The notes under the pieces were generated by a model. The model ran no database searches. It was not told the DNA's origin and saw only the letters and a list, made by a program, of their open reading frames with translations. 64,000 nt of DNA from Prauserella aidingensis. Its GTDB lineage: Bacteria; Actinomycetota; Actinomycetes; Mycobacteriales; Pseudonocardiaceae. The stretch lies in contig NZ_JAMTCN010000005.1 in the NCBI RefSeq assembly GCF_024171865.1, positions 124,001 to 188,000 of the forward strand. The letters are read 5' to 3'. Below, one piece after another: positions 25,618 to 62,371 of this stretch; position 1 is the first letter of the stretch; every line of letters begins with the position of its first letter. A program made the position numbers and the translations under genes.

Positions 25618-25640
25618 CCGAGCCGCACCGCGCGGCCGTC

Positions 25641-25805
25641 TACGCCCGCCCGTCTCCCACCGCCACCCAAAGCGACACGCTCCGCGTGGCCCCCTAGGCC
25701 CACCGTCTCCCACCACCGCCCAACAGGACGCGCTGCCGCGCGGCCCCCTACGCCCGCCCGTCTCCCACCGCCACCCAAAGCGACACGCTCCGCGTGGCCC
25801 CCTAG
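25641..25805 (+). repeat. Three-copy ~55-bp tandem repeat upstream of menG
   Basis: A 57-bp unit (TACGCCCGCCCGTCTCCCAC at its start, GTGGCCCCCTAG at its end) is present twice without change at 25641-25697 and 25749-25805, with a diverged copy between them. It ends ten bases before the menG start codon, so it contributes to that gene's leader. The copies between EspG and menG do not encode a plausible protein. Confidence 0.85.
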
Positions 25806-28775: not shown

Positions 28776-29324
28776 ATGGGTCTCGAGGAGAAACTCCCCA
28801 ACGGAATCCTGCTGACGTCGCTCGAGGGTGTCGTCAACTGGGCGCGCAAGAACTCGATGTGGCCCGCGACGTTCGGTCTCGCGTGCTGCGCCATCGAGAT
28901 GATGACCAGTGGCGGATCGCGGTACGACCTCGCGCGGTTCGGCATGGAGCGCTTCAGCGCGACGCCCCGGCAGGCCGACCTGATGATCGTCGCGGGCCGG
29001 GTGACGCAGAAGATGGCGCCGGTCCTGCGCCAGATCTACGACCAGATGGCCGAGCCGCGCTGGGTGCTCGCGATGGGCGTGTGCGCCTCGTCCGGCGGCA
29101 TGTTCAACAACTACGCGGTCGTGCAGGGCGTCGACCACATCGTGCCGGTCGACATGTACCTGCCTGGCTGCCCGCCGCGGCCGGAGATGCTGCTCGACGC
29201 GATTCTCAAGCTGCACGCGAAGGTCCAGGACGAGCCGATCAACGCCCGCCGCGCGCAGTTGCGCGAGGAGAGCGGCGCGAAGACCGAGATCATCCCGTCG
29301 TCCGTCAAGTACGCGAAGAAGTAG
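28776..29324 (+). CDS. nuoB: NADH-quinone oxidoreductase subunit B
   Basis: 182 residues, carries the terminal [4Fe-4S] cluster N2 that hands electrons to quinone. Cluster ligands are in [26 protein letters not shown] and [10 protein letters not shown]. Six bases after nuoA; the ATG follows GATGCGCC with no strong ribosome-binding site, suggesting coupling. Confidence 0.97.
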
Positions 29325-29333
29325 GGCGAGGCC

Positions 29334-30092
29334 ATGGCTGACGAGGACACGCAGAACCCGCGCACCGGTGGCGAGAACTCGAGCGCCGAACGGCCCGAGG
29401 GAGGCCTCGAGCCGCGCGGTGCCGAACCGGCACGGGTGGTCGCCGGTCACGAACGCAGGGGCATGTTCGGTGTCTCCGGCAGCGGCGACACGTCGGGCTA
29501 CGGCGGACTGCGCCTGCCCGCCTACTCGCCGCCGCCCGCGGAACGCCCGTACGGCGGCTGGTTCGACGACTTCGCCGACGAGTTCTACGCCGCGCTCGCC
29601 GACAACGGCATTCCCGCCGAGGCGATCCTGCAGGTGACCGTGGACCGCGGCGAGATCACCTTCTACGTCGACCGCGAGCATCTCGTCGCGATGTGCCGCG
29701 TGCTGCGCGACGACGAGGGGCTGCGCTTCGAGGTGTGCAGCTCGGTGTCCGGTGTGGACTACGGCGAGGACGTGCCGCAGCGGCTGCACTCGGTGTACCA
29801 CCTGCTGTCGATGACGTACCGCCGTCGCATCCGTCTCGAGGTGACGATGGACGTCGAGGACCCGCACGTGCCGTCCATTGTGGAGGTCCACCCGACGGCG
29901 GACTGGCACGAGCGCGAGGCCTACGACATGTTCGGCATCGTCTACGACGGCCACCCCGCGCTGACCCGCATCCTCATGCCCGACGACTGGGAAGGGCATC
30001 CGCAGCGCAAGGACTACCCGCTCGGCGGCATCCCCGTGGAGTACAAGGGCGCGGAGATCCCGCCGCCGGACACGCGGAGGTCGTACTCGTGA
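29334..30092 (+). CDS. nuoC: NADH-quinone oxidoreductase subunit C
   Basis: 252 residues of the 30-kDa subunit. The first ~60 residues are a hydrophilic extension ([20 protein letters not shown]); the conserved part includes [39 protein letters not shown] and the end [16 protein letters not shown]. NuoC and NuoD are separate here, as in most actinobacteria. The stop overlaps the GTG of a repeat-encoded small frame. Confidence 0.96.
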
Positions 30093-30247
30093 GCTTTCCG
30101 CCGAAGTACGTGTTCCCGCTGGAGGCGCGGGAGATGCCGCCGAAGTACGTGTTCCCGCTGGAGGCGCGGGAGATGCCGCCGAAGTACGTGTTCCCGCTGG
30201 AGGCGCGGGAAGCACAGTCCGCTTTCTTCCCGCTGGAGGCGCCATGA
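30089..30247 (+). CDS. Repeat-encoded 52-residue open frame bridging nuoC and nuoD
   Basis: GTG 30089 overlaps the nuoC stop (GTGA) and the stop TGA (30245-30247) overlaps the nuoD ATG (ATGA). The frame is three 39-bp repeats plus a diverged fourth, giving [13 protein letters not shown] units of 13 residues. Each unit carries GGAGG some nine bases before an in-frame ATG, so the array is a string of translation-start-like segments. It may serve only to couple nuoC and nuoD translation; a real peptide is possible. No family is recognised. Confidence 0.5.
30097..30243 (+). repeat. Family C 39-bp repeat array between nuoC and nuoD
   Basis: Units read CCGCCGAAGTACGTGTTCCC then GCTGGAGGCGCGGGAGATG; the first three are almost identical and the fourth is diverged. 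The last unit supplies the GGAGG ribosome-binding site of nuoD. Related copies lie before nuoF (32468-32496), in nuoG (34497-34533, reversed), between korA and korB, and at the start of the ABC ATPase gene. Confidence 0.9.
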
Positions 30248-31617
30248 CCACTAGCGACAACATCGCCGACGTGTCCACCGGCACGGACACGAGCCCGGAG
30301 GGGTCGGACAGCGCTCCGTACGCCGAGCCGCGGGAGACCACCGAGGGCCCGGTCTACACGGTCAGCGGCGGTGACTGGGACGACGTGCTGTCGGACGCCT
30401 CGCACGACGAGCGCATGGTCATCAACATGGGCCCGCAGCACCCGTCGACGCACGGCGTGCTGCGGCTGGTGCTGGAGATGGAGGGCGAGACCGTCACCCA
30501 GCTCCGGTCGGTGATCGGCTACCTGCACACGGGTATCGAGAAGAACTGCGAGTACCGCACGTGGACGCAGGGCGTCACGTTCGTGACGCGCATGGACTAC
30601 CTGTCTCCACTGTTCAACGAGATGGGCTACTGCCTCGCGGTGGAGAAGCTGCTCGAACTCGAGGTTCCTCGCCGGGCGCAGCTGTTGCGGGTGCTGCTCA
30701 TGGAGATCAACCGCATCGGTTCGCACTTCGTCTACATCGCCACCGGCGGTATGGAGCTCGGTGCCACGACGGCGATGACGCTCGGTTTCCGCGAGCGCGA
30801 AGAGGTGCTGCACCTGCTCGAGCACCTGACGGGACTGCGGATGAACCACGCGTTCATCCGGCCCGGCGGGCTGGCGCAGGACATGCCGGAGGACTTCGTC
30901 GAGAAAGTCACCGAGTTCTGCAAGGTGATGGACGAGCGGCTGCCGCTGTACGACAAGCTCTTCACGGGCCAGCCGATCTGGCGTAACCGGCTCAAGGGCG
31001 TGGGCTACCTGCCGTTGGACGCGTGCCTGGCGCTCGGCGTCACGGGTCCGGTGCTGCGTTCGGCGGGTGTGGCGTGGGATCTGCGCAAGACGGATCCGTA
31101 CTCCTGCTACGACGAGTTCGACTTCGAGGTGCCGACGTCGACCGACGCCGACTGCTGGGCCCGCTACCTGCTCCGCGTCGAGGAGATGCGCCAGTCGGTG
31201 CGGATCATCCGGCAGGTGCTGGAGAAGTTGGAGCCCGGTCCGGTGATGGTCGAGGACCGCAAGATCGCGTGGCCCGCGCAGTTGTCGGTCTCGAGCGACG
31301 GCATGGGCAACTCGCTCGACCACGTCCGCAAGATCATGGGCCAGTCGATGGAATCGCTGATCCACCACTTCAAGCTGGTCACCGAGGGCTTCCGGGTGCC
31401 GCCGGGTCAGGTGTACTCGACGGTCGAGTCGCCGCGCGGTGAGCTCGGGTTCCACCTCGTCTCCGACGGCGGCACGCGGCCCGCGCGGGTCCACGTGCGC
31501 GAACCGAGCTTCGTGAACCTCCAGGCGATGCCGGCGATGTCGGAGGGCGGCCTGGTCGCCGACGTCATCGCGGCCGTCGCATCGATCGACCCGGTGATGG
31601 GGGGAGTGGACCGATGA
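30244..31617 (+). CDS. nuoD: NADH-quinone oxidoreductase subunit D
   Basis: 457 residues, 49-kDa subunit that helps form the quinone site with NuoB. Motifs: [68 protein letters not shown]. The first ~55 residues are a hydrophilic extension. The start overlaps the repeat-encoded small frame; the stop overlaps nuoE (ATGA). Confidence 0.97.
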
Positions 31618-32387
31618 GTAGTCCGAAGGGCGGCCCCGCCGACGGCGGAGCCTCGACGACGTCGACCACGTTCGGCGAGGACACGGTCGCGGAGGCACGC
31701 GAGTTGATCTCGCGCTATCCGCAGTCGCGGTCCGCGTTGTTGCCGTTGCTGCATCTGGTGCAGTCGGTCGAGGGGTACGTCAGCCAGGAGGGCATGACGT
31801 TCTGTGCGCAGCAGCTCGGGCTGTCGGAGGCCGAGGTCGCGGCGGTCGCGACGTTCTACACGATGTACAAGCGCAGGCCGTGCGGCGAGCACCTGGTGAG
31901 CGTGTGCACGAACACGCTGTGCGCGGCGATGGGCGGCGACGCGATCTACAAGCGGCTGCAGCAGCACCTCGGCTCGGAGGGTGCGCCGCTCGGCCACGAG
32001 GACGTGGCGGGCACGCCGGGGGAGAGCGGCTCGGTGATGCTCGAACACGCCGAGTGTCTCGCGGCGTGTGACCTGGCGCCGGTGCTGCAGGTCAACTACG
32101 AGTACTTCGACAACCAGACCGAGGACAGCGCGGTCGAACTGGTCGACGCGTTGCGGCGCGGGGACAAACCGCACCCGACGCGCGGCGCGCCGCTGTCGGA
32201 CTTCAAGACCGTGGAGCGGCGCCTGGCGGGGCTGCTTCCCGAGGACGACGACGAGTTCTGGACCGATGTGGACGGACCGTCGCAGGCTGTCGAAACGGTC
32301 CGCGGCGCCCAGCTGGCCGCGGACCGCAACTGGACGGCGCCTGCTGCGCCGGAGGACGTGCCGCTGCCGGAGGTGGAGGCGAAATGA
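31614..32387 (+). CDS. nuoE: NADH-quinone oxidoreductase subunit E
   Basis: 257 residues, thioredoxin-like [2Fe-2S] subunit (cluster N1a). Ligands are in SVCTNTLC and [18 protein letters not shown]. The C-terminal ~60 residues (after about [12 protein letters not shown]) are an actinobacterial extension. The stop overlaps an ATG that opens a 26-residue frame. Confidence 0.96.
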
Positions 32388-32467
32388 ACGACCATCGTGT
32401 GCTCGTTTGTTCATGGAGCCGACCGGGTGCGGAGCTCCGCAGGACACAGGTGGAGGCGAAATGAACG
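32371..32467 (+). repeat. 20-bp direct repeats flanking the nuoE-nuoF spacer
   Basis: AGGTGGAGGCGAAATGAACG occurs at 32371-32390 (end of nuoE) and again at 32448-32467 (start of nuoF). The first copy contains the nuoE stop and the second the ribosome-binding site and ATG of nuoF. Such repeats fit a duplication or an insertion with homologous ends between the two genes. Confidence 0.85.
32384..32464 (+). CDS. 26-residue open frame bridging nuoE and nuoF
   Basis: ATG 32384 overlaps the nuoE stop (ATGA) and its own stop (32462-32464) overlaps the nuoF ATG at 32461. The peptide would be [20 protein letters not shown] plus TQVEAK. The start lies in the first and the end in the second 20-bp direct repeat. 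Like the nuoC-nuoD frame it could couple translation; there is no evidence for a stable peptide. Confidence 0.4.
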   Translation: MNDHRVLVCSWSRPGAELRRTQVEAK

Positions 32468-33852
32468 CCGAAGCACGCTTTCCCGCTGGAGGCGCGATGA
32501 ACGGCCCGGAGAAGGCTCCGTTGACGCCGGTGCTCACGAAGCGCTGGTTGTCGCCGCAGTCGTGGCGGTTGGAGACGTACGAGAAGCTCGAGGGCTACAC
32601 CGCGATGCGGAAGGCGCTGAGCGGATCGCCGGACCAGGTCATCCAGCTCGTGAAGGATGCGGGCCTGCGCGGTCGTGGTGGTGCGGGGTTCCCGTCGGGT
32701 GTGAAGTGGGGCTTCATGCCGAAGGACGAGGAGAAGCCGCACTACCTGGTGATCAACGCCGACGAGGGTGAACCCGGTACGTGCAAGGACATTCCGCTGA
32801 TGATGGCGGACCCGCACGCGCTGATCGAGGGTTGCATCATCGCGGCGTACGCGATGCGCTCGCACCACTGTTTCATCTACGTCCGCGGTGAGGCGCTGCA
32901 TCCGATACGGAGGCTGCACGCGGCCGTCCGCGAGGCGAAGCAGGCCGGCTACCTGGGTCACGACATCCTCGGTTCGGGGTTCGACCTGGAGATGACGGTG
33001 CACGCGGGTGCGGGTGCCTACATCTGCGGCGAGGAGACGGCGCTGCTCGACTCGCTCGAGGGCCGTCGTGGCCAGCCGCGGCTGAAGCCGCCGTTCCCCG
33101 CGGCGTCGGGGCTGTACGCGGCGCCGACGACGGTCAACAACGTGGAGACGATCGCGACGGTCCCGTCGATCATCAACGGCGGTTCCGACTGGTTCCGTGC
33201 GATGGGCAGCGAGAAGTCGCCCGGGCCGAAGATCTACTCGGTGTCCGGCCACGTCGAGCGTCCCGGCCAGTACGAGGCGCCGCTCGGTACGACGCTGCGG
33301 GAGTTGCTCGAGATGTGCGGCGGGATGTCCGGCGGCATCCCGCTGAAGTTCTGGACGCCGGGCGGTTCGTCGACGCCGCTGTTCACCGCCGACCACCTGG
33401 ACGTGCCGCTGGACTTCGAGGGCGCTGCCGAGGCCGGTTCGATGCTGGGCACGACGGCGGTGCAGGTGTTCAACGAGACGGTGTCGGTGCCGTGGGCCGT
33501 GATGAAGTGGACGCAGTTCTACGAGCACGAGTCCTGCGGCAAGTGCACGCCGTGCCGTGAGGGCACGTTCTGGCTGGCGCAGGTTCTCGAGCGCATGGTC
33601 GACGGCCGGGGCAGCGAGGAAGACATCGACACGCTGCTGGACGTCTGCGACAACATCGGCGGACGGTCGTTCTGCGCGCTCGGCGACGCCGCGGTCAGCC
33701 CGATCCAGAGTGGCATCAAGTACTTCCGTGACGAGTTCCTCGCGCTGTGCGAGTCGAACAGGCCCGCGCGGGCGGCCGGGGCGGTCGCGTCCCCGGAACC
33801 CGCGCCCGGCAGTGAGTCCCAGGCCGCGCAACCGGTTGGAGCACAGGCATGA
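32461..33852 (+). CDS. nuoF: NADH-quinone oxidoreductase subunit F
   Basis: 463 residues, binds NADH and FMN and carries cluster N3. Motifs: [20 protein letters not shown], the NADH/FMN segment [12 protein letters not shown] and the cluster ligands [16 protein letters not shown]. The start may be ATG 32461 (with GGTGGAGG) or ATG 32497 ([10 protein letters not shown] with GCTGGAGG); the twelve codons between them are a family C repeat copy. A Pro/Ala-rich tail ends just before the nuoG ATG, which overlaps this stop. Confidence 0.96.
32468..32496 (+). repeat. Family C repeat copy at the start of nuoF
   Basis: CCGAAGCACGCTTTCCCGCT followed by GGAGGCGCG, ending directly before ATG 32497. The copy supplies a ribosome-binding-site-like GGAGG to that start and is read in frame if translation begins at ATG 32461. 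Confidence 0.75.
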
Positions 33853-36395
33853 CCGTGGCACCGGAGAAGTCCGATGTGGACGTACCGGAGGGGTACGTCA
33901 AGCTCACCATCGACGGCGAGGAGGTCGTCGCACCGAAGGGTGAGCTGCTGATCCGCACCGCCGAGCGGCTCGGCACGGTGATCCCGCGGTTCTGCGACCA
34001 CCCGCTGCTCGACCCGGCGGGCGCGTGCCGGCAGTGCCTCGTCGAGGTGGAGATGAACGGCCGTCCGATGCCGAAGCCGCAGGCCTCGTGCACGATGACG
34101 GTCGCCGACGGCATGGTCGTCAAGACGCAGGTGACGTCGGAGGTCGCCGACAAGGCCCAGCAGGGTGTGATGGAGCTGCTGCTCATCAACCACCCGCTGG
34201 ACTGCCCGATCTGCGACAAGGGCGGGGAATGCCCGCTGCAGAACCAGGCGATGGCCCACGGCCGCACCGATTCACGGTTCGTCGACAAGAAGCGCACGTT
34301 CCCGAAGCCGCTGCCGATCTCGTCGCAGGTACTGCTCGACCGGGAGCGCTGCGTGTTGTGCCAGCGCTGCACCCGGTTCTCCGACCAGATCGCGGGCGAC
34401 CCGTTCATCGACCTGCTCGAGCGGGGCGCCCACCAGCAGATCGGCACCGCGGAGACGGCGGACGTGCTCGACGCCGCCTCACACACGTCGGAGTCCGATT
34501 CCGCCTCAGCGGGAAAGAGTGCTTCGGCGGGCGGCCAGCCGTTCCAGTCGTACTTCTCCGGCAACACGATCCAGATCTGCCCGGTCGGTGCGCTCACCAG
34601 CGCCCAGTACCGTTTCCGTTCGCGGCCGTTCGACCTGGTGTCGACGCCGAGCGTGTGCGAGCACTGCTCGTCCGGCTGTGCGGAGCGGACGGACTTCCGC
34701 CGCGGCAAGGTCATGCGCAAGCTCGCGGGCGACGACCCCGAGGTCAACGAGGAGTGGATCTGCGACAAGGGCAGGTTCGCCTTCCGTTACGCCACCGCGG
34801 AGCAGCGCATCCGCAGGCCGCAGGTGCGCAACGCCGAGACCGGGGAACTGGAGGAGGCGTCGTGGACCGAGGCGCTCCGCGCGGCGGCCGACGGGCTGGC
34901 GAAGGCACGTGACGGCAAGGGCGTCGGGGTGCTACCCGGTGGCCGGGTGACGCTCGAGGACGCCTACGCCTACAGCAAGTTCGCGCGCGTGGCGCTGCGC
35001 ACGCACGACGTCGACCATCGCGCACGGGCGCACTCGGCCGAGGAACTGGACTTCCTCGCCTCCCGGGTGGCGGCCGACGGCGGCCCGGCCGGAGGCGGCG
35101 TGACGTTCGCCGACCTGGAGAAGGCGCCGATCGCGCTGTGTGTCGCCCTCGAACCGGAGGAGGAGGCGCCCGCCGTCTTCCTGCGGCTGCGCAAGGGTGC
35201 GCGCGCGAACGACGTCAAGGTGGTCCACATCGGACAATGGGCGTCGCCCGCGGTGGAGAAGACCTTCGGGGAACTGCTCGCCTGTGCCCCCGGCGGTGAG
35301 GCGGGTGCCGTCGACGGCATCGCCCAGCACGCCCCGGACGTCGACGAGGCGCTGCGTTCCGAGGGTGCGGTCGTGCTCGTCGGCGAACGCGCCGCCGAGG
35401 TGCCGGGCCTGCCGACGGCGCTGCACCGGCTGGCCGAACGCACGGGCGCACGTCTCGCGTGGATCCCGCGCCGGGCGGGCGAACGCGGCGCCGTCGAGGC
35501 GGGCACGCTGCCGACGCTGCTGCCCGGTGGGCGGCCCGTCACCGACGCCGACGCCCGCTCGGAGGTGGAACGCCACTGGGGGATCGAACCCGGGACGTTG
35601 CCCGCGGAACCGGGCCGCGACGTGACGGGGATGTTGAACGCGATCGTCACGCGCGACCTGGACGGCCTGCTCGTCGGTGGCGTCGACCTCGACGACCTGC
35701 CCGACCCGGCGCTGGCCCGCAAGGCGTTCGATGCGGCCGGGTTCGTCGTCTCGCTGGAACTGCTGCCGAGCACGGTCACGCCGTACGCCGACGTGGTGCT
35801 GCCGATCGCGCCGGTCGACGAGAAGAGCGGCACGTTCGTCAACTGGGAGGGCCGCCGCAGGCCGTTCACCGTGACGCTCGACGGCACGGGCGCACTCGCC
35901 GACAGCCGGGTCCTCGACACGCTCGGCGTCGAGATGGACGCCGACCTGTTCACCCAGACCGCCGACGCCGCACGCGGCGACCTCGACCGACTCGGCGCTC
36001 ACGAGGGAACTGCCCCCAAGGGCACTTCGGTTGCACTCAGTGCAACCAAGGTGCCCCCGGGGGCGTCGGCCGAACCGCCTGCACCCGGGGACGGGCAGGC
36101 GCTGCTGGCGACGTGGCGGCAACTCATCGACGACGGCTCGCTGCAGATCGACGAACCCGCGCTCGCGGGTACCGCCCGGCGCGTCGTCGCCCGCATGTCC
36201 CGCGCGACCGCCGACGGCCTCGGCGACCACGTGACGGTGTCGACCGACCGCGGGTCGGTGACGCTGCCCGTCGAGGTGACCGACCTGCCCGACGGCGTCG
36301 TCTGGCTCCCCGGGAACTCGCCGGGCTCGAAACTCCGCGCCACCCTCGGCGCCGGACACGGCGCGGTCGTCGACATCGCCGGAGGTGACCGGTGA
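33849..36395 (+). CDS. nuoG: NADH-quinone oxidoreductase subunit G with two in-frame repeat insertions
   Basis: 848 residues, the large iron-sulfur subunit. [2Fe-2S] ligands lie in [20 protein letters not shown], further clusters in [15 protein letters not shown] and [10 protein letters not shown] with ICPVGALTS, and a molybdopterin-type domain begins at VCEHCSSGC. Near residue 217, GKSASAGGQ (34497-34533) is a reversed family C repeat inside an unusually long loop before [10 protein letters not shown]. Near residues 722-739, [15 protein letters not shown] is a family B palindrome read in frame. Both lie in loops outside the cluster ligands, so the protein is probably functional. Confidence 0.95.
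34497..34533 (-). repeat. Family C repeat copy inside nuoG (reversed)
   Basis: On the minus strand the copy reads GCCGAAGCACTCTTTCCCGC then TGAGGCG. It is part of a ~25-residue insertion ([19 protein letters not shown]) before [10 protein letters not shown] that is not expected in NuoG. Confidence 0.65.
36012..36064. repeat. Family B palindromic repeat inside nuoG
   Basis: A copy of the palindrome at 7531-7583 (reversed, ~90% alike) read in frame in nuoG. The 53-bp element is an imperfect inverted repeat; the arms centre on CACTCAGTG. An entire palindrome inside a conserved respiratory subunit gene is unusual. Confidence 0.88.
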
Positions 36396-53249: not shown

Positions 53250-54314
53250 CTACTCGACCGTCCAGGTGTCCTTGCCGGTGAGCAGGGCCTGCAGGTCGCC
53301 GGGCTTGGCCTCCTGCGCCTGCTGCACCTGTGCGCGGGCCTGGTCGTCGTAGGTCTCCCGCTGGACCTGACGGAAGATTCCCGTCGGGATGTGGCTGAGG
53401 TGCTGGTCCCCGAGGCGGGACAGCGCGAAACCGTAGGCCGTGTCTTCGATCGAGGGGTCGTGGGTGACGAGGTTGTCCTCGCCGATGTCGGCGACCTTGC
53501 CCACGTCGAGACCGCCGTAGCCGGTCGTGGTGACACCGAACTCGCCCTCGGGGCCGAACCGGATCGGCTCACCCGGCGTCAGCGGGATGATCCGCTGGGC
53601 GGCTTCGCCGGAGTCCTTCAGCATGTCGAACGCGCCGTCGTTGAAGATCGGGCAGTTCTGGTAGATCTCCACGACCGCACTGCCGCGGTGCTCGGCGGCG
53701 GCGCCGAGCACCTCCGTGAGGCCCTTCTTGTCCGAGTCCAGCGCGCGGCCCACGAACGTCGCCTCGGCGCCCAGCGCCAGCGACACCGGGTTGAACGGCG
53801 TGTCCACCGACCCCATCGGCGTCGACTTGGTGACCTTGCCCGGCTCGGACGTCGGCGAGTACTGGCCCTTCGTCAGGCCGTAGATCCGGTTGTTGAACAA
53901 CAGGATCTTCAGGTTGACGTTGCGGCGCAGCGCGTGAATCAGGTGGTTACCGCCGATGGACAGGGCGTCGCCGTCACCGGTCACGACCCACACCGACAGG
54001 TCCGGCCGGGTCGTCGCCAGGCCGGTGGCGATCGACGGCGCGCGGCCGTGGATCGAGTGCATGCCGTAGGTGTTCATGTAGTACGGGAACCGGCTCGAGC
54101 AGCCGATCCCGGAGATGAACACGATGTTCTCGCGCTTGAGCCCCAGCGTCGGCAGGAACGACTGGATGGTGTTGAGCACGATGTAGTCACCGCACCCCGG
54201 GCACCAGCGCACTTCCTGGTCGGACTTGTACTCCTTGGCCTTCTGCGGCTCGTCGGTCGTCGGGACCAGATCGAGCCCGCCCATGCTGGGCAGGCCCAGG
54301 TCGGTGGCTGTCAT
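53250..54314 (-). CDS. korB: 2-oxoacid:ferredoxin oxidoreductase beta subunit KorB
   Basis: 354 residues, ThDP-binding subunit. CPGCGDYIVLNTIQSFLPTL, GIGCSSRFPYYMNTYGMHSI, HGRAPSIATGLATTRPDLSV and VVTGDGDALSIGGNHLIHAL are typical, with CxxC and distal Cys ligands of a [4Fe-4S] cluster. With KorA it converts 2-oxoglutarate and CoA to succinyl-CoA and reduced ferredoxin. It starts on the stop of a repeat-encoded small frame after korA. Confidence 0.93.
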   Translation of the reverse strand: MTATDLGLPSMGGLDLVPTTDEPQKAKEYKSDQEVRWCPGCGDYIVLNTIQSFLPTLGLKRENIVFISGIGCSSRFPYYMNTYGMHSIHGRAPSIATGLATTRPDLSVWVVTGDGDALSIGGNHLIHALRRNVNLKILLFNNRIYGLTKGQYSPTSEPGKVTKSTPMGSVDTPFNPVSLALGAEATFVGRALDSDKKGLTEVLGAAAEHRGSAVVEIYQNCPIFNDGAFDMLKDSGEAAQRIIPLTPGEPIRFGPEGEFGVTTTGYGGLDVGKVADIGEDNLVTHDPSIEDTAYGFALSRLGDQHLSHIPTGIFRQVQRETYDDQARAQVQQAQEAKPGDLQALLTGKDTWTVE

Positions 54315-54475
54315 GCTGCCGCCTCCGCGGAGAAGAGTGCGTCGTCGGTGTTGCTGCCCGCCTTCGCGGGACCGAGTGCGTCGTCGGTGTTGCTGCCCGC
54401 CTCCGCGGGACCGAGTGCGTCGTCGGTGTTGCTGCCCGCCTCCGCGGGACCGAGTGCGTCGTCGGTGGTGGTCAT
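54311..54475 (-). CDS. Repeat-encoded 54-residue open frame bridging korA and korB
   Basis: ATG 54475 overlaps the korA stop (ATGA), and the stop (54311-54313) overlaps the korB ATG (54314). The frame is four 13-residue units such as TDDALGPAEAGSN from 39-bp repeats, each with a GCGGAGGCGG segment. The last unit provides the GGAGG of korB. The arrangement is the same as in the nuoC-nuoD gap. It may only couple translation; no family is recognised. Confidence 0.5.
   Translation of the reverse strand: MTTTDDALGPAEAGSNTDDALGPAEAGSNTDDALGPAKAGSNTDDALFSAEAAA
54330..54470 (-). repeat. Family C 39-bp repeat array between korA and korB
   Basis: Four tandem copies (three close to identical) with CCCGCGGAGGCGGGCAGCAA in the centre. 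The unit length is the same as in the nuo array and the sequence is related. Confidence 0.88.
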
Positions 54476-57091: not shown

Positions 57092-58093
57092 ATGACAGGC
57101 GACCACGCGCTGCCCGTACGTGTCCCGACGCCCCGCCACTATCTGATGTGCCCGCCGCGGTACTTCGCGGTGGAGTACTCGATCAACCCCTGGATGGACC
57201 CCGATCGGCCCGTCGACACGGAGCTGGCCATGCGCCAGTGGACGACGCTGCGCGACACCTATCGCGAGCTGGGCCACACGGTCGACGAGGTGCCGCCGCA
57301 GCCAGGGCTGCCGGACATGGTGTTCGCCGCCAACTCGGGCACCGTCGTCGACGGCCGCGTACTCGGATCGCGGTTCCGCGCACCGGAACGGGCCGCCGAG
57401 GCCGAGCACTTCCGTCGCTGGTTCGTCGAGAACGGGTTCCGCGACGTCACGATGCCCCGGCAGATCAACGAGGCCGAGGGCGACTTCGTCTGGACGGGCC
57501 GGGTGCTGCTCGCCGGTACCGGCTTCCGCACCGACCCGGGTGCCCACGCCGAGGCGCAGGAGGCGCTCGGCGTGCCGGTCGTGTCGCTGCACCTGATCGA
57601 CGAGCGCTACTACCACCTGGACACGGCGCTGTTCGTGCTGTCCGGCGAATCCGACGGTGCGACCCCCGCCGAGACACCCGCCCGTGTTGCGGATCCGGGG
57701 GCCCGTGTTGCGGATTCGGGGGCGCGTGTTGCGGATCCCGGGGCGCGTGTTGCGGGCTCGGGGGATCGTGTTGCGGGTTCCGGGGGAGACGGAGGCGGTG
57801 CCGCCGGTCCTGCCCGGGCGCAGATCGCCTACTACCCGGAGGCGTTCTCCGAAGGCTCACGGCGTGTGCTGGCGCGGCTGTTCCCGGACGCGGTGCAGGC
57901 CACAGCCGCTGACGCGGAATGCTTCGGGCTCAACGGAATCTCCGACGGCCGCCACGTCGTCCTGCCCGTCGAGGCGACCGGCCTGGGCGACCAGCTCACC
58001 GAGCGGGGCTACGAGGTGCGGTTCGTCGACATCTCGGAGCTGCGCAAGGCGGGCGGCGGTCCGAAGTGCTGCACCCTGGAGATCCGCAAGTAG
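57092..58093 (+). CDS. ddaH: Dimethylarginine dimethylaminohydrolase/amidinotransferase-family protein with 21-bp repeat insertion
   Basis: 333 residues of the amidinotransferase fold. HYLMCPPRYFAVEYSINPWM, LPDMVFAANSGTVVDGRVLG, HLIDERYYHLDTALFVL and the C-terminal catalytic cysteine in GGPKCCTLEIRK are as in DDAH. It probably acts on arginine-type guanidino compounds, alongside the Lrp regulator. Between residues about 195 and 235 is an insertion of seven-residue units (ARVADPG) from the 21-bp family A repeat, before AQIAYYPEAFSEGSRRVL. Start ATG 57092 or GTG 57065. Confidence 0.87.
   Translation: MTGDHALPVRVPTPRHYLMCPPRYFAVEYSINPWMDPDRPVDTELAMRQWTTLRDTYRELGHTVDEVPPQPGLPDMVFAANSGTVVDGRVLGSRFRAPERAAEAEHFRRWFVENGFRDVTMPRQINEAEGDFVWTGRVLLAGTGFRTDPGAHAEAQEALGVPVVSLHLIDERYYHLDTALFVLSGESDGATPAETPARVADPGARVADSGARVADPGARVAGSGDRVAGSGGDGGGAAGPARAQIAYYPEAFSEGSRRVLARLFPDAVQATAADAECFGLNGISDGRHVVLPVEATGLGDQLTERGYEVRFVDISELRKAGGGPKCCTLEIRK
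57680..57786 (+). repeat. Family A 21-bp repeat array inside ddaH
   Basis: Five units of about 21 bp around CGCGTGTTGCGGATCCCGGG, read in frame. The reverse complement is the ccsB repeat. The insertion is absent from typical members of the family, as far as I can tell, and sits in an exposed loop. Confidence 0.88.
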
Positions 58094-59421: not shown

Positions 59422-59454
59422 GGGGGCACTGTCCACCCGGGACACGCCGACGTC

Positions 59455-59625
59455 AACCCGCGCCCCGGAGTCCGCAACACGCGCCCCCGAACCCGCAACA
59501 CGAGCCCCCGGATCCGCAACACGGCCTCCGGGATCCGCAACACGAGCCCCCAGAGCCGCAACACGGTCCCCTGAGAGCGCAACACGCGCCCCCAGACCCG
59601 CAACACGCGCCCGTCCCCGAATCCG
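59455..59625 (-). repeat. Family A 21-bp repeat array upstream of the VOC gene
   Basis: About eight units around CGTGTTGCGGATCCCGG lie in the gap between the ABC permease stop and the VOC start. This copy is probably not translated, although the frame stays open through it. It is the same unit as in ccsB and ddaH. Confidence 0.85.
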
Positions 59626-61520: not shown

Positions 61521-62371
61521 CGCGCGGCCAACGGCGCCATACCGTAGGCGCGCTCGAGGTGCTCCGGCGTGAGCACGTCGGCCGGCGCCCCCGCGGCGAC
61601 GACCGTGCCCGCCATCAACACCGCATGGTCGAACCGATCCCGCACGTCACGCAGATCGTGGTGCACGGCGATCACCGACACACCGTCGCGGCACAACCCC
61701 GTCAGGATCTCCAACAACGCCGCCTCGGTACGAGCGTCGACGGCCGTGAACGGCTCGTCCAACACGATCAGGTCCGCGCGCTGCGCGAGCGCCCGCGCCA
61801 GGAACACCCGCTGCCGCTGCCCACCCGACAGCTCGTCGATCGGCCGGTCCGCCAGCTCCGCGACCCCGACCTGCTGCATCGCGGCCGCCACACACTCGTC
61901 GTCCTCCGCCGTCAGCCTGCGCAACCAGCCCCGGTGCGGATACCGGCCCATCTCGACGACCTGCACAGCCGTGATCGGGAAGTCCTTCGCCACCGCATCC
62001 GACTGCGGGACGTACGCCACCCGCTTACGCACCCGCCGCAACGGCCGTCCCAGCCACCGCACCGTGCCCCGCACCGACGGCACCAGCCCCAGCGCCGCCT
62101 TCACCATCGTCGACTTGCCCGCACCGTTCGGCCCGACGACCGCACTCAACACCCCCGCGGGGATCTCCACGTCCACCCCGGTCAACACGGGCCTGCCGCC
62201 GTACGAGGCACTCATGCCCTCCAGGCGCAGCGCGGGTTCGGTCATCTCCGGAGCCTCCGAGGGGAAACGGGTATCGGGTGCGTCGACCGGGTCAGTCGCC
62301 GCCTCCGCGGCAGAACGTGCGTCGGCGGTGCCTTCTTCCGCCTCCGCGGGAGAACGTGCGTCGGCGGTCAT
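61517..62371 (-). CDS. Mn/Zn ABC transporter ATPase with repeat-derived N-terminus
   Basis: 284 residues if started at ATG 62371, or 242 from ATG 62245 (MTEPALRLEGMSASYGG), where the ABC domain begins. Walker A GPNGAGKSTMVKAALGLV, signature LSGGQRQRVFLARALAQ and Walker B LIVLDEPFTAVDA are present. The first 42 codons are 39-bp family C repeats (TADARSPAEAEEG units) inserted between the substrate-binding gene's stop and the original start, which keeps its own GGAGG-like site. Both starts could be used. Confidence 0.92.
   Translation of the reverse strand: MTADARSPAEAEEGTADARSAAEAATDPVDAPDTRFPSEAPEMTEPALRLEGMSASYGGRPVLTGVDVEIPAGVLSAVVGPNGAGKSTMVKAALGLVPSVRGTVRWLGRPLRRVRKRVAYVPQSDAVAKDFPITAVQVVEMGRYPHRGWLRRLTAEDDECVAAAMQQVGVAELADRPIDELSGGQRQRVFLARALAQRADLIVLDEPFTAVDARTEAALLEILTGLCRDGVSVIAVHHDLRDVRDRFDHAVLMAGTVVAAGAPADVLTPEHLERAYGMAPLAAR
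62246..62371 (-). repeat. Family C 39-bp repeats at the start of the ABC ATPase gene
   Basis: Two close copies (ACCGCCGACGCACGTTCTCC then CGCGGAGGCG) and a third diverged copy ending GGAGATG at the downstream ATG 62245. Unit length and sequence match the korA-korB and nuoC-nuoD arrays. Confidence 0.82.

Follow-up and report, generated by a model that had tools for sequence, protein, structure and literature searches.

Short multicopy intergenic repeats without a transposase of their own, such as ERIC, REP and BOX, occur in bacteria mostly as hairpins between genes, and the bridging of overlapping genes is not known as one of their defining traits. Mycobacterial interspersed repetitive units (MIRUs) insert at start codons with a coupling geometry of −4 nt and have a minimal effect on genes, according to the excerpted account of Supply et al. 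(1997) in Brown and Wade (2025; PMC12548453). The enterobacterial repeats RU-1 to RU-3 are small mobile repeats that carry open reading frames (ORFs) and are also found inside genes, as stated in the opening of the abstract of PMC2759123. The present analysis concerns a 39-bp repeat array at the junction of nuoC and nuoD in a 64,000-nt stretch of Prauserella aidingensis DNA (contig NZ_JAMTCN010000005.1, positions 124,001 to 188,000), referred to below as the window and numbered from its first letter. The array is, with good probability, a copy of a dispersed mobile repeat without a transposase, whose usual landing site is NTGA, the four-nucleotide stop/start overlap of coupled genes, and which, judging from its sequence, would preserve their coupling.

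The nuoC gene (29334..30092, plus strand; ORF, Pfam PF00329, E 1e-47) ends on the TGA inside GTGA at 30089-30092, and nuoD (30244..31617, plus strand; ORF, PF00346, E 5e-116) starts in ATGA at 30244-30247. The space between them is occupied by a bridging mini-ORF of 52 codons and a stop (30089..30247, plus strand; sequence reading). It overlaps each neighbour by 4 nt, through its GTG at the nuoC stop and its TGA (30245-30247) at the nuoD start, and the distance from start to start is 155 bp. No unit interrupts the frame in this genome. Tandem Repeats Finder reported a 39-bp period with 2.9 copies, 100% matches and a score of 226 at 30098-30210. Unit 1 (30095..30133), in which the first three bases differ, is followed by unit 2 (30134..30172), unit 3 (30173..30211) and a decayed fourth unit at about 30212..30243, all on the plus strand; the last has GGAGG immediately 5' of the nuoD ATG and a partial profile match at 30224-30242. 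The original prediction, made from the sequence before this analysis, had described three near-identical units and a diverged fourth, a frame exactly filling the gap between nuoC and nuoD, and a minisatellite with a Shine-Dalgarno-like GGAGG in each unit; all of these were confirmed. The further claim that each GGAGG is followed by an in-frame ATG held for units 1 and 2 and failed for the others: unit 3 is followed by GAAGCACAG, and the nuoD ATG behind the fourth GGAGG sits in a different frame. At the position of the in-frame ATG congeners read ACA, and an in-frame ATG is no general property of the unit. Further assemblies of the genus show the same unit in the same place with other copy numbers, which makes an assembly artefact, also raised in that prediction, unlikely.

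The preference for NTGA was determined on 89 copies drawn from the best-scoring matches listed (30 loci given with their matches and 60 fetched; one of these 90, L241, escaped the pattern and was left out, and L268-L270 stand outside the count). Some of the 89 copies are orthologous, and they represent 70 distinct junctions. In 65 of the 89 copies, an ORF of 100 codons or more ends on an NTGA no more than 22 nt upstream, as against 783 of 26,261 random positions (3.0%) in the same loci. With a limit of 50 codons instead, the upstream NTGA was found in 67/89 copies and at 1642 of 26,259 random positions. Of these 67 copies, 51 form a bridge to another NTGA at the head of a long frame, 13 continue through in frame, and the other 3 belong to neither class. 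Single units flanked by NTGA on both sides allow a frame test that is free of the bridging assumption. The start-to-start distance was 2 mod 3 in 30 of 33 such copies (38 bp in 23, 41 bp in 5 and 35 bp in 2), the exceptions being 39, 40 and 48 bp; when one copy per distinct junction was kept, 23 of 26 were 2 mod 3 (binomial p 8.7e-9). Moreover, GAGG ends 4, 5 or 7 nt 5' of the next start in 74/74 bridging steps. As 38 is itself 2 mod 3, this bias marks the element as one built to bridge, and lengths of 35, 41, 131 and 161 bp suggest that the frame is also kept after insertion.

These properties can be arranged into a mechanism in which the unit would serve as a cassette. Its start codon would be the NTG present upstream in the target, followed by an open body, and the 3' part would provide GGAGG as a new ribosome-binding site and then a new NTGA as the end. 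A ribosome ending NuoC would restart on the GTG, translate the mini-ORF, unfolding the insert, and then restart on nuoD aided by the last GGAGG. An insert of 35, 38 or 41 bp, being 2 mod 3, would allow the ribosome to restart on the mini-ORF and again on the downstream gene. Growth of the array in 39-bp steps would produce one longer mini-ORF, and growth in 38-bp steps a chain of mini-ORFs. Coupling efficiency peaks at −4 to +3 nt and drops about 3- to 10-fold as spacing nears +40, according to the excerpted text of Brown and Wade (PMC12548453); therefore, a frameless 155-bp insert should weaken the coupling of NuoC and NuoD. We infer mobility from the dispersed copies and from filled and empty sites, and the translation of the mini-ORF and the preserved NuoC-NuoD coupling are likewise putative.

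The closest likeness is to MIRUs, as far as the excerpted sources describe them. The Prauserella element is also dispersed (75 of 249 genomes of its family, with up to 31 matches in one genome), lies at the stop/start overlap of co-directional genes (65/89 copies against 3.0% of random positions), appears from its sequence to have the −4 nt geometry (exact bridges in 51/67 copies with an upstream NTGA, frame bias in 30/33) and varies in tandem copy number (0 to 4 units at nuoC-nuoD in seven species). Preserved translational coupling by a mobile repeat, as proposed for mycobacterial MIRUs, is the most likely explanation. The two differ in unit length, which is 38/39 bp here and 40-100 bp in the excerpted text on MIRUs (PMC2734929), and in host, Prauserella belonging to another family than mycobacteria. 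Moreover, in Prauserella the units merge into one mini-ORF, and some copies are antisense inside genes. The element therefore works like a MIRU yet is set apart from MIRUs, because its unit is shorter than the stated range, its host is different, and the two were compared by description, not by sequence. RU-1 to RU-3 differ in being 103-168 bp long and similar to miniature inverted-repeat transposable elements, and the start of the abstract used for this comparison carries no mention of NTGA targeting (PMC2759123).

Close relatives show how the junction itself changes. NuoC of the window genome is 96% identical to that of P. alba, 95% to P. salsuginis and 93% to P. rugosa. In six genomes of the genus the nuoC-nuoD distance is 155, 34, 155, 80, 118 and 116 bp, while a seventh (G006) is without an insert. 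The comparison of repeat number across related genomes proposed in the original prediction thus revealed 0 to 4 units among the seven congeners, a difference between species, and 4 of the 6 filled copies are exact bridges. This variation agrees with a regulatory minisatellite, in which the repeat number would tune the translation of NuoD relative to NuoC, and a precedent exists in the excerpted text of PMC2734929, where the transcript level of a Mycobacterium tuberculosis gene behind a variable repeat was lower with a shorter repeat. Such tuning is nevertheless unlikely, as the element is scattered over unrelated operons, the 4-nt overlaps persist at differing repeat numbers in 4/6 filled copies, and the copy-number variation is known between species only. 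The frame-keeping geometry suggests instead that coupling may be largely independent of repeat number. A survey of 86 nuoC-nuoD loci (80 from the comparison that also gave the NuoC identities, and six others) comprised 42 direct NTGA overlaps, 30 TGATG overlaps, 10 exact bridges and 4 non-exact inserts, so that an overlap or an exact bridge is retained in 82/86. Five of the ten exact bridges are inserts without the 39-bp element, in Actinopolyspora, Pseudonocardia, Blastococcus, Salinispora and Micromonospora. At the same junction in Amycolatopsis rubida (L019), two copies of an unrelated insert were seen, repeating the nuoC end AGGTCCTACTCATGA.

The mini-ORF could also be kept for its product, a functional 13-residue repeat peptide, which is consistent with a frame open across all units in the window genome. 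The mean entropy at codon positions 1, 2 and 3 was 0.50, 0.48 and 0.49 (32 distinct one-register units, of 50 distinct 38-bp steps), and the third-position GC was 0.71 in the mini-ORFs as against 0.93 in the genes behind them, a value that is not gene-like. In addition, the nuoC-nuoD and korA-korB copies within the window lie in two different phases, and no Pfam match was obtained for the peptide. It is the open frame rather than the peptide that is kept, because codon positions vary equally and sites differ in frame. The repeat peptide suggested in the original prediction showed no sign of codon-level selection; it is highly improbable and was rejected. A structural RNA or DNA element, such as a REP-like hairpin, a terminator or a protein-binding site, would act independently of translation. 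The ends of the core, CCGCC and GGCGG, are complementary, and one of four folded versions folds slightly better than its shuffles (z −1.84). The other three gave z values of 0.60, 0.57 and −0.47, and RNA structure was rejected as the explanation; an Rfam scan of 29000-33000 gave no match in the array and one sub-threshold match outside it. A structural role would also leave the NTGA targeting and the frame bias unexplained, and it is therefore regarded as very unlikely.

Several observations weigh against an element that lands on NTGA and preserves coupling. The frame bias might come with the element itself instead of arising by selection at individual sites; since 38 bp is 2 mod 3 by itself, only the lengths of 35, 41, 131 and 161 bp argue beyond it. 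The 13 'fused' read-through copies are weak evidence, as their loose test was also passed by 127 of 134 control frames, and because this open-frame control failed to discriminate, the class was not used as evidence. By script, 22 of the 89 copies have no NTGA; by eye, at least five of these have NTGA and two TAATG, and others lie inside coding sequence. The core stands in one phase in 69 of the 74 bridging steps and in another in 5, and these five, in other genera, all come from a single junction cluster. Two of the six filled nuoC-nuoD copies in Prauserella (34 bp and 118 bp; P. alba and P. rugosa) are 1 mod 3, and their mini-ORFs end on TAG a few codons into nuoD. Neither a mobility enzyme nor a clear target duplication beyond the shared TGA was found, and bridging has been read from sequence.

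The distribution beyond the genus bears on the origin of the first unit. A pattern search with three mismatches was rejected as uninformative, giving 34 matches as against 31 for the reversed pattern, and profiles were therefore used. The wide searches used a profile of 24 units and a threshold of E<=0.001. Of the 249 genomes sampled from the family Pseudonocardiaceae they matched 75, against a chance expectation of about 0.25 genomes, and the matches cover 22 of 46 genera. An order-level sample gave 23 of 298 genomes, of which 20 belong to the window's family, and a phylum-level sample gave 5 of 296, namely the genome of the window itself and four others with one weak match each (E 4e-4 to 8e-4). 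Some junctions are occupied by the element in more than one genus: argC-argJ and nuoC-nuoD in three genera each, and korA-korB in two. In arrays elsewhere a 38-bp period is common, with every unit carrying its own NTGA, which results in a chain of 13-codon mini-ORFs (four at L202). The open-licence literature, including a search for four 21-22-letter stretches of the element, yielded no description of the 38/39-bp repeat, which is here regarded as a separate family with MIRU-like geometry, spread over many genera.

The unit had originally been taken for a local copy of the nuoD initiation region, and this is contradicted by its recurrence at other operon junctions in the window genome and in 75 of the 249 family genomes. 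Purely local slippage at the nuoC-nuoD ribosome-binding site, with no mobile element involved, fits the three identical units and the slippage-like 39-bp steps in copy number, and slippage may well be the cause of array growth. As a full explanation it is scarcely credible, since the first unit is foreign to the local sequence and has counterparts at unrelated junctions and in further genera, which contradicts slippage as its origin.

Within the genus, a search of seven genomes with a profile built from 11 units gave strong matches at seven sites, five of which (nuoC-nuoD, nuoE-nuoF, inside nuoG, korA-korB and the junction of a ZnuA-like binding protein with its ABC ATPase) lie in the window, within a span of about 33 kb. 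Of the remaining two, one is at argC-argJ in a single genome and the other falls within a long ORF of another contig that by eye resembles a helicase. At the nuoF start a single 36-bp unit of the 39-bp family (32461..32496, plus strand; profile) continues in frame into NuoF, and in P. alba it bridges at 35 bp. One antisense unit inside nuoG (34490..34528, minus strand; profile and sequence) adds 13 extra codons in frame and is missing in 3 of the 7 genomes. Two units and a decayed third (62250..62371, minus strand; profile and Pfam) lie at the ATGA between the ZnuA-like and ABC ATPase genes and are joined in frame to the ATPase N-terminus. Between korA and korB, which encode a 2-oxoacid:ferredoxin oxidoreductase, four units (54311..54475, minus strand; profile, Pfam and sequence) form a 54-aa mini-ORF that bridges ATGA to ATGA over 161 bp from start to start. 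The filled korA-korB junctions of the genus measure 38, 38, 38, 38, 131 and 161 bp, all six being 2 mod 3. The junction is empty in one genome (G005). In a tree built from the nuo region this genome is nested among filled species, so that precise loss is the simplest account of the empty site. The korA-korB distances of 0, 38, 131 and 161 bp form a natural series for measuring the reach of ribosome hand-over.

Antisense copies were also observed in other coding sequences. At L159-L162 (G000:C4:144897-144963 and relatives) an antisense element in 39-bp steps lies inside a long ORF, helicase-like by eye, with two units in the window genome and about five in G002. Another, near 1501-1532 of L199, is apparently in frame within an ORF that by eye resembles malate synthase.

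The nuoE-nuoF ATGA of the window also holds a second, unrelated element (32384..32464, plus strand) with 77 bp between starts and a 26-aa bridging mini-ORF, flanked by copies of GGTGGAGGCGAAATGA. It is found at nuoE-nuoF in three other genomes of the genus at 85-88% identity, with weaker relatives at further NTGA junctions of the genus (L285-L289). Two NTGA-bridging families are thus present in one operon, nuo, in the window, and nuoC-nuoD is bridged by at least six unrelated inserts. It may tentatively be proposed, as a possibility short of an even chance, that several unrelated families of gene-less minimal mobile elements in actinobacteria have converged on one way of inserting almost silently: they would land on the NTGA of coupled genes, measure 2 mod 3, and bring their own ribosome-binding site and an open frame. 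If true, sites of translational coupling would in general offer selfish DNA a safe harbour. MIRUs have so far been treated as mycobacterial, and the similar geometry described here makes the idea of safe landing testable by frame statistics and reporters. The results also advise caution in annotation, where mini-ORFs and N-terminal extensions of this kind should not be taken for functional peptides.

Other repeats were noted in the window. Tandem arrays at 98-225, 57680-57786 and 59454-59612 consist of similar 21/42-bp units, about CAACACGNGCCCCCGGAATCCG or its reverse complement, and apparently represent another dispersed repeat. Moreover, a 54-bp tandem repeat in 3.4 copies is located at 25624-25804.
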